From Gammaproteobacteria bacterium (GTDB lineage Bacteria; Pseudomonadota; Gammaproteobacteria; GRL18), in assembly GCA_027012135.1 (NCBI GenBank), contig JALUZF010000069.1:1-36092 (forward strand): DNA of 36,092 bases, in the 5' to 3' direction. Positions 425 to 2,443 of this stretch are shown one piece after another. How positions within the stretch are numbered: the stretch's first letter is position 1; every line of letters starts with the position of its first letter. The notes beneath the pieces are model-generated. The model saw only the letters and a program-made list of their open reading frames with translations. It was not told the DNA's origin and did not search any database. The position numbers and the translations under genes are program-made.

Positions 425-2443
425 TTATATCGTATATTCTGATAAGGATGGGTAAAGCAAGTTGATGTCAGATACAGCCAGTCCTTTTTGTTCGGGTGAA
501 TAGCGGCTATATTGTGCTAACAGTACTGGATCCCTTACCCCGATAATAGATATTAGTTCAGAAAGACGAATCCCCTGCCTGACCAGATACATAATGTAGC
601 TATGTAGGAGTGTGTCTTCTGTAATACGTTCAGGATCCATACCTGCATCTACAATACTATAAGTCAGAATTGCTTTAAGGGTTTTCTCTGTAACTGAATC
701 CTTGCCATTATTCCATGCAGGAATAATATCAGACTGTTTAAACCAATGTTTTAATGCCGGCTGCAGCACCACGGTACGGTTTTCAGCTCCTCTTACAGTG
801 ATGGTATTTTCTGTAAAATTAATATCATCCTGCTTTAAGTTTACAATCTCCTGCAAACTTAGTCCGCTCAGCAATAATGCAATAATCTGCCGGCCCTTTA
901 AATCCGCTGTTTGCAGCAGATTAGTAATTTCTGAACTGCTCAGTTCTTCAGGCAGTGATTGTTCAAGGCTTTTTATTTCTTCCTGTTCCAGTGTTTGAGG
1001 AGAATTATAGGCTACTGAGTCCCTGACATTATTGATAATACCCGGCGGAGTGTTATACATATTAACCCCTGAAATAGAGACAGTGGGAGTGTCCGACTCT
1101 TTTCTCGTTAAAAATTCAATGATCCAGACAAAAAACAAGCCCAATACAAATGAACCGGCAAGAGAAATCAGTGCATCTCTGGTGTATTCAGGCCTTATAG
1201 GTTCATGAGCCAGAAATGCCCGTTCAATCACTTTAACCTGTGGAAAATTTTCTGCCTGTTTAGCTTCAATCTGTACTAATCTTTCATTAGCAAGCCGCTG
1301 TAGTTTCTGCAAACCTTCCAGAGCATTTAATAATGACTCATATTCTGCAAATTTTGAGCTGAATTCTGTGGCTTCCTGTTTGTGCAGCTCAAGTTGTCGG
1401 GTTATTTCCTCCAGAGCCTGTGTGGCAGCATTATATTCCTGTTCTGCATTATTCAGGACAATAACCTGTCCATAATCTCTTTTTTGCCGAATTTCCCGTT
1501 CTAGCTCTTTAATTTGCCCAGGCAGTACGTTCATATTCGGATATAAAGCCAGGTAACTACGGGTATATTTTCGATCGAATGCAGCCAGTTTTTCTTTAAG
1601 TTTCTGTAAACGCAGCTCCAGGACCTGCATGCCCCGCTTATCTTCATCCGGTATAATAATTTTACCTTCACTGATTGCCTTTTTTACCGCATCAAGGTGA
1701 GCTTTAGCCCTGATTTTATCTTCAGTCATCTGATTAAATGAATGATTTAATGCCTTAAATCGTGCCAGTGACTGGTTTTCAAATACATTTTTTCGGTCCA
1801 GTGACGTTATATTATTATGACTTCTAAATTGTTCCAGGTCTGCTCTTTTAAGAACGATTTGCTGCTCCAGTCCAGCCAGTTCTTCCTGTAATGCTTTTAT
1901 TGTTGTTCCTGTCGTGTGTCGAATATCCTCTGCTCTTTTTTCCAGGTATACATCAATCCAGGTATTAACCAGGTTCATGATAATCTTCGGAGAGTTACCG
2001 ACTGCAGAGAGTTCTACCAGGTTGGTTTCCGGAACAGCCTGAACATTCAGCATATTGCGAATATCTGAAACCGTTAAGCTGCTCAGTAATTTCTGCTCAT
2101 CTGGTGACAGTATTTCAGATTTAACCTGATTTAATCGCTGGAGGATTTCTTCTAATATCATATTTCCAGTCAGCAGCTGTTTCTGTATTGCCACATGCTG
2201 GATATCGGCATCATCACTTTGTCGATCAATTGCCGTTGGTGCTACCGTTAATAATGTAGCATAACTTTTATAAACAGCAGGGCGGCCGTAGACATAAGTG
2301 AGACTGATACCCAGACTGATCAGAAATACCAGCATAAAGACAAGGAGTCTGCGGGAGCGGTACCAGGGAGGAGTGTTAATGCTAGTATTCTGGCTATACT
2401 GCTGGCCGGAAAACATATCAATTTGAGGCTGGGTATTATTCAT
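425..2443 (-). CDS. Wzz/GumC-like polysaccharide chain-length protein fused to a degenerate tyrosine-recombinase-like domain
   Basis: The 672-residue protein has the polysaccharide co-polymerase layout: a short cytoplasmic N-terminus, a membrane segment (about 33-53), a Wzz-type periplasmic region with long coiled coils (about 175-400), and a second membrane segment (about 422-445). No BY-kinase Walker motifs follow. Instead, after a linker, residues about 498-650 resemble the catalytic fold of tyrosine recombinases: LLLSGLSLQEIVNLKQDDI corresponds to the box-I helix, TLLHSYIMYLVRQGI to the HxxR helix, and AQYSRY to the tyrosine region. The expected catalytic residues are mostly absent: box-I Arg is Ser529, the HxxR Arg is Leu613 and its His is Asp610, and the later His/Trp is Val636. 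I infer a cytosolic DNA-binding or protein-interaction module rather than an active recombinase. The recombinase assignment is from pattern only. The gene stands alone between ychF and tRNA-Met, with no glycosyltransferases nearby. Confidence 0.8.
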   Translation of the reverse strand: MNNTQPQIDMFSGQQYSQNTSINTPPWYRSRRLLVFMLVFLISLGISLTYVYGRPAVYKSYATLLTVAPTAIDRQSDDADIQHVAIQKQLLTGNMILEEILQRLNQVKSEILSPDEQKLLSSLTVSDIRNMLNVQAVPETNLVELSAVGNSPKIIMNLVNTWIDVYLEKRAEDIRHTTGTTIKALQEELAGLEQQIVLKRADLEQFRSHNNITSLDRKNVFENQSLARFKALNHSFNQMTEDKIRAKAHLDAVKKAISEGKIIIPDEDKRGMQVLELRLQKLKEKLAAFDRKYTRSYLALYPNMNVLPGQIKELEREIRQKRDYGQVIVLNNAEQEYNAATQALEEITRQLELHKQEATEFSSKFAEYESLLNALEGLQKLQRLANERLVQIEAKQAENFPQVKVIERAFLAHEPIRPEYTRDALISLAGSFVLGLFFVWIIEFLTRKESDTPTVSISGVNMYNTPPGIINNVRDSVAYNSPQTLEQEEIKSLEQSLPEELSSSEITNLLQTADLKGRQIIALLLSGLSLQEIVNLKQDDINFTENTITVRGAENRTVVLQPALKHWFKQSDIIPAWNNGKDSVTEKTLKAILTYSIVDAGMDPERITEDTLLHSYIMYLVRQGIRLSELISIIGVRDPVLLAQYSRYSPEQKGLAVSDINLLYPSLSEYTI

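Follow-up and report, generated by a model that had tools for sequence, protein, structure and literature searches.

We report a gene that joins a polysaccharide co-polymerase (PCP) of the chain-length-determinant type to the catalytic domain of a tyrosine recombinase, found in a window of 36,092 nucleotides (the whole stretch of DNA analysed; contig JALUZF010000069.1 of assembly GCA_027012135.1, Gammaproteobacteria bacterium). Profile searches, structure prediction and comparison of 70 proteins bearing the domain, the window's included, established that the two parts are fused, that the second has the recombinase fold, that no family member keeps the full catalytic set and that purifying selection acts on the domain. 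The fusion is best read as a variant of PCP-2 whose cytosolic scaffold would be a pseudo-recombinase in place of a tyrosine kinase or pseudokinase.

Gene and protein layout

The fusion gene lies on the minus strand at 425-2443 and encodes, from an ATG start, a product of 672 amino acids with the following parts.

425..2443, minus strand: whole gene, PCP/pseudo-tyrosine-recombinase fusion (open reading frame and NCBIfam matches; same layout in 70 family members)
2291..2347, minus strand: transmembrane (TM) helix 1, residues 33-51 (hydropathy; predicted helix 31-53 in the full-length model)
1175..2290, minus strand: periplasmic PCP domain with long coiled-coil helices, residues 52-423 (TIGR03007 match; model; Foldseek matches to Wzc/WzzE/KpsE)
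1118..1174, minus strand: TM helix 2, residues 424-442, followed by EFLTRKE on the cytosolic side (hydropathy and model)
962..1102, minus strand: disordered linker, residues 448-494 (pLDDT below 50; least constrained part)
494..955, minus strand: pseudo-tyrosine-recombinase domain, residues 497-650, with S529, no Lys, D610, L613 and V636 as dead positions and Y645 retained (profiles, structure model, family alignment)
428..493, minus strand: C-terminal tail, residues 651-672 (near-invariant Pro665, 97% in the family alignment)

The N terminus is predicted to be cytosolic from the Arg-rich WYRSRR before TM helix 1 (positive-inside rule); the membrane topology as a whole is likewise a prediction, and PCP-type oligomerisation of the fusion is presumed.

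The N-terminal half was assigned with NCBIfam profiles to the XrtA chain-length determinant (TIGR03007, E 1.4e-13, residues 35-390), the nearest curated PCP family and one matched by 67/67 family members, with a score for the window protein of 49.9 bits against a cut-off of 278.9. Wzz (PF02706) scored 15.9 against a cut-off of 25.5 bits, and 7/67 family members attained E 1e-3 with it. Hydropathy, the full-length model (pLDDT 82, with the PCP part confident) and Foldseek agreed on two TM helices either side of a large periplasmic coiled-coil domain; in Foldseek the N-terminal part of the model matched Wzc/WzzE/KpsE, with the PCP-2a protein Wzc the best full-length match. By its modelled structure, the window protein is thus a distant member of the PCP-2/Wzz-GNVR group. 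It falls outside TIGR03007 itself, both by its sub-cut-off score and by its orphan position, and this genome has a genuine TIGR03007 protein encoded within its XrtA cluster.

The C-terminal half matched XerA_Arch (NF040815, E 2.7e-14, residues 488-639; NCBIfam profiles), the match beginning at the catalytic part of the model (positions 84-245 of 263), and phmmer against PDB sequences returned an Xer recombinase (E 9.3e-7). A domain model of residues 485-672, built by AlphaFold2 with 67 family members, scored a mean pLDDT of 90.9, and its elements run helix/beta-hairpin/helix as in the catalytic domain of a recombinase. Its best Foldseek match was XerA (5hxy, E 7.7e-7), and VIA-align gave Z 16.1 over 162 residues to the archaeal Xer protein 4a8e and also listed MrpR/YopR and SroF. 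The core-binding (SAM-like) domain is absent; what precedes the catalytic-type domain is a TM helix and then the disordered linker. The fold is that of a tyrosine recombinase and not of a tyrosine kinase, so the protein carries neither a BY-kinase nor a BY-pseudokinase. A sequence-only reading of the window had described a Wzz/GumC-type chain-length protein with a catalytically dead tyrosine-recombinase-like domain, had placed a phage-integrase catalytic fold at about residues 498-650 and had proposed profile searches and structure prediction of the C-terminal region as a check; both parts of the fusion are borne out, and these searches recovered the recombinase fold rather than an unrelated domain.

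Lost active site and selection

Catalytic positions were mapped by alignment to Escherichia coli XerD across the 70 domain-bearing proteins. XerD R148, H244, R247, H270 and Y279 correspond to window Ser529, Asp610, Leu613, Val636 and Tyr645. Arg148 (Arg I) is substituted in 70/70 (T 39, S 20, D 7, N 2, K 1, E 1), as is His244 (the His of HxxR), and the beta-hairpin Lys (XerD K172) is missing in 70/70, the window protein included. Arg247 (Arg II) is retained in 59/70, His270 in 10/70 and Tyr279 in 61/70. The R-K-H-R-(H/W)-Y active site of a tyrosine recombinase is therefore not found in this family, and the loss of Arg I, Lys and His throughout means that the domain, as judged from the alignment, should not recombine DNA. 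All five residues had been paired correctly with their catalytic counterparts before any alignment, the first four as losses and Tyr645 as the possible nucleophile, though the lost Lys had gone unnoted; Leu613, however, is unusual, being one of eleven departures from the Arg that most members keep. As in MrpR and SroF, the result is a recombinase fold with a lost active site.

Six residues outside the former active site, by contrast, are invariant in the 70 members: G527, R556, Y616, L620, Q623 and G635. Median pairwise dN/dS rose from 0.081 in the PCP part through 0.144 in the domain to 0.243 in the linker (447-492). Judged from these sequences, the domain is catalytically dead, yet maintained by purifying selection.

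Family and distribution

A search of genome contigs with the single protein gave no match, and a search with the family alignment gave 74 loci from named genomes. The 70 proteins with the domain share the same two-part layout, so the proposed search for homologues so built returned a family with common losses and common invariant residues. Hosts include Methylococcaceae (among them mussel and snail symbionts), Nitrosomonas, Nitrosospira/Nitrosovibrio (Nitrosomonadaceae), Thiohalocapsa, Sedimenticola-like bacteria and others. In an even sample across the phylum, the domain occurred in 3/398 genomes (the window's own among the 3), each time inside a frame of ~670 amino acids. The fusion is present in 47/120 genomes of the N. 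europaea family, always as a single copy. This family was recognised as that of N. europaea by the exosortase coordinates, which agree between G531 and G570, the genome to which L093 belongs. In the window's order the fusion occurs in 7/24 genomes. A link to methane oxidation was not seen in that order, pmoA being found in 1/24 genomes; the single pmoA above the curated cut-off (L106, G018:C272:2012-2722; none in the other 23 genomes) points to a bin of mixed origin or else to an unusual methane oxidiser. Relatives of the fusion were not found in viral contigs or plasmids, nor relatives of the C-terminal domain in phages, and hence no present-day phage source was found.

In the tree (L034, L035, L037-L039, L043-L047, L050, L051, L068, L081, L086, L090, L094 against L030-L033, L054, L072), fusions from Nitrosospira/Nitrosovibrio group with those of Methylobacter (support 97/99), and the Nitrosomonas sequences lie elsewhere. 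This placement suggests that the fusion reached ammonia oxidisers at least twice, independently, with an apparent transfer of the gene between them and methane oxidisers. Candidatus Litorirhabdus singularis (L082:10001-11470) encodes a PCP of the same subfamily (490 amino acids, profile E 4e-154) without the recombinase domain; a split-off domain was looked for near it and not found. This PCP sits near the base of the tree on a long branch, and the tree does not root the fusion event: on these sequences the domain was either added to an existing PCP or lost in Litorirhabdus. One Nitrosomonas copy (G513:C110:84732-86627) contains a single internal TAG stop. A contig labelled Candidatus Polarisedimenticolaceae (Acidobacteriota; L070) carries a fusion very near the Sedimenticola-like copies, with shared neighbour genes, and is probably mislabelled or transferred.

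Genomic context and exosortase association

Gene-neighbourhood comparison of the family loci found no conserved polysaccharide operon or neighbours around the fusion, which is thus an orphan gene. In methanotroph loci L032, L053, L054, L087 and L092, a glycosyltransferase-like gene (cluster c30) lies directly downstream in the same orientation, and in most of them a membrane-protein-like gene (c15) comes next. At the sites checked for a locus without the fusion, contigs of close relatives end beside ychF.

Polysaccharide-export proteins and an exosortase were present in 12/12 genomes checked. Among the 120 N. europaea-family genomes, a long, high-scoring EpsH exosortase (E 1e-44 or better, mostly ~530 amino acids) occurred in 47/47 with the fusion versus 1/73 without it, many of the 73 having a shorter exosortase (Fisher p 8e-33, a value that ignores shared ancestry, to which the co-occurrence may partly be due). 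Fusion and high-scoring EpsH are both present or both absent save in G512, a genome 80% complete. No such association is seen in the window's own family, where the long EpsH occurs in 3/7 genomes with the fusion and 10/17 without. The length of EpsH, together with the exosortase A with EpsI domain of the window genome, suggests that the long EpsH corresponds to exosortase A, which belongs to the EPS/PEP-CTERM system described by Haft et al. (PMC1569441).

The window genome holds a complete exosortase-A (XrtA) cluster elsewhere, with its own PCP (TIGR03007, 559 bits; no recombinase domain, unlike the fusion), a tyrosine autokinase and an export protein. We considered the fusion as a missing member of this cluster and rejected the idea because the cluster already has its TIGR03007 PCP; with ~20% identity between the two over the aligned stretch, the fusion is a second, different PCP.

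Proposed role and alternatives

Kinases and pseudokinases are the known answers for cytosolic control of PCPs, and the tyrosine kinase of Wzc controls PCP assembly and disassembly. Wzc (PCP-2a) resembles the fusion in its two TM helices, periplasmic coiled-coil domain and C-terminal cytosolic domain, the last being a BY-kinase on the same polypeptide in Wzc and a tyrosine-recombinase fold here. A dead cytosolic module serving a PCP has parallels in EcpK/EpsV and in PCP-2 proteins with fused BY pseudokinases: EcpK, a BY pseudokinase, is required for EPS in Myxococcus and was proposed to scaffold the assembly cycles of its PCP, EpsV, without phosphorylation (PMC12004946). The folds are unrelated, and EcpK, which belongs to the kinase family, is a protein in its own right. 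By analogy with the EcpK proposal, the pseudo-recombinase is probably an interaction module controlling PCP assembly. The PCP part would be anchored in the inner membrane by its two helices, and the subunits would presumably oligomerise into a periplasmic cage that helps to polymerise and export surface polysaccharide. The cytosolic end, a recombinase catalytic domain without DNA chemistry and now a putative pseudoenzyme, would hang on a flexible linker under each subunit as a protein-protein scaffold, among PCP subunits or with a cytosolic partner, and may so control PCP assembly and disassembly. In favour of this scaffold role count the profile and model assignments of both halves, the dead but constrained domain and its acidity, its constant fusion in one frame, the EpsH co-occurrence in the N. 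europaea family, the export proteins and exosortase of the 12 genomes checked, and the EcpK precedent. Against it stand the orphan position of the gene, the PCP and autokinase that the XrtA cluster already possesses, the missing EpsH association in the window's own family, and the Arg II and Tyr still common in the family.

With XerA/XerC/XerD and integron integrases the domain shares catalytic-domain fold and sequence profile; it differs in its destroyed active site, its missing core-binding domain, its fusion to a membrane protein and its acidity. In almost every member the domain is acidic (median pI 4.83, net charge -6.8), compared with net charges of +8.9 for an archaeal Xer domain and -0.8 for E. 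coli XerD. The core-binding domain closes the recombinase clamp on DNA. Acidity and the absence of that half together argue against DNA tethering, and on these grounds binding or regulation of proteins is the favoured role for the modelled domain; the mild charge of XerD means that acidity by itself is no proof against DNA binding. A membrane DNA tether or membrane-bound transcription regulator, with sequence-specific DNA binding retained and polysaccharide assembly or envelope position coupled to the chromosome, seems unlikely. The domain's fold is that of the phage repressors MrpR/YopR (SPbeta) and SroF (phi3T), and most members keep Arg II and Tyr. MrpR has lost recombinase activity and still binds DNA as a repressor, its fold reused for regulation (PMC10516654), so DNA binding by the fusion domain is disfavoured only. 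These repressors, however, are soluble DNA-binding proteins without a PCP fusion, MrpR consists of core-binding plus catalytic domain, and the fusion has neither that clamp-completing N-terminal domain nor, in any member, three of the active-site residues. The narrower proposal of a specific DNA binder acting as a membrane-anchored one-component regulator, tying the polysaccharide machine to chromosome or promoters, is a shade less likely again.

About as doubtful as the DNA tether is a sensory role, in which the domain would bind a small molecule or signalling protein and switch the PCP, ligand-gated rather than as a constitutive scaffold: the family-specific conserved residues do gather on the helix that follows the former HxxR (Y616, L620 and Q623 invariant, Y619 and R626 near-invariant), but no conserved signalling gene was found in the neighbourhood. 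That the recombinase domain is an accidental acquisition, tolerated as an idle tail, is improbable. The Litorirhabdus PCP, which stops soon after TM helix 2, indicates that such a PCP can exist without it, and the PCP part evolves more slowly than the domain; the invariant residues, a dN/dS below that of the linker, and retention in different classes, even where the gene has apparently moved from one lineage to another, speak against an idle passenger. Conservation of the pairing in methane- and ammonia-oxidising bacteria suggests instead that the dead domain has probably been put to new use in assembly or control and did not arise as a single chance event. An artefact, either similarity by chance or two genes joined through a frameshift, is hardly credible: the window protein does fall under Pfam's gathering thresholds for Wzz and for Phage_integrase, where Pfam makes the same two assignments as NCBIfam, but 70 members in single open frames with the same layout, profile E-values to 1e-14, a confident model and a strong structural match rule it out. 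Contamination of the bin was also rejected, hemA on the same contig being 99% identical to that of same-genus genomes.

We found no Pfam or NCBIfam model covering the whole fusion, and no paper describing a PCP-recombinase fusion in the open-access literature. To our knowledge, reuses of a dead recombinase fold are few and have so far been phage repressors, to which the fusion adds a membrane-protein case. For the control of PCPs from the cytosol, this family suggests a third kind of module, unrelated to kinases and pseudokinases; as some of its hosts are available as pure cultures (Nitrosomonas europaea, Nitrosospira, Methylotuvimicrobium buryatense), genetic tests of its role are practical.
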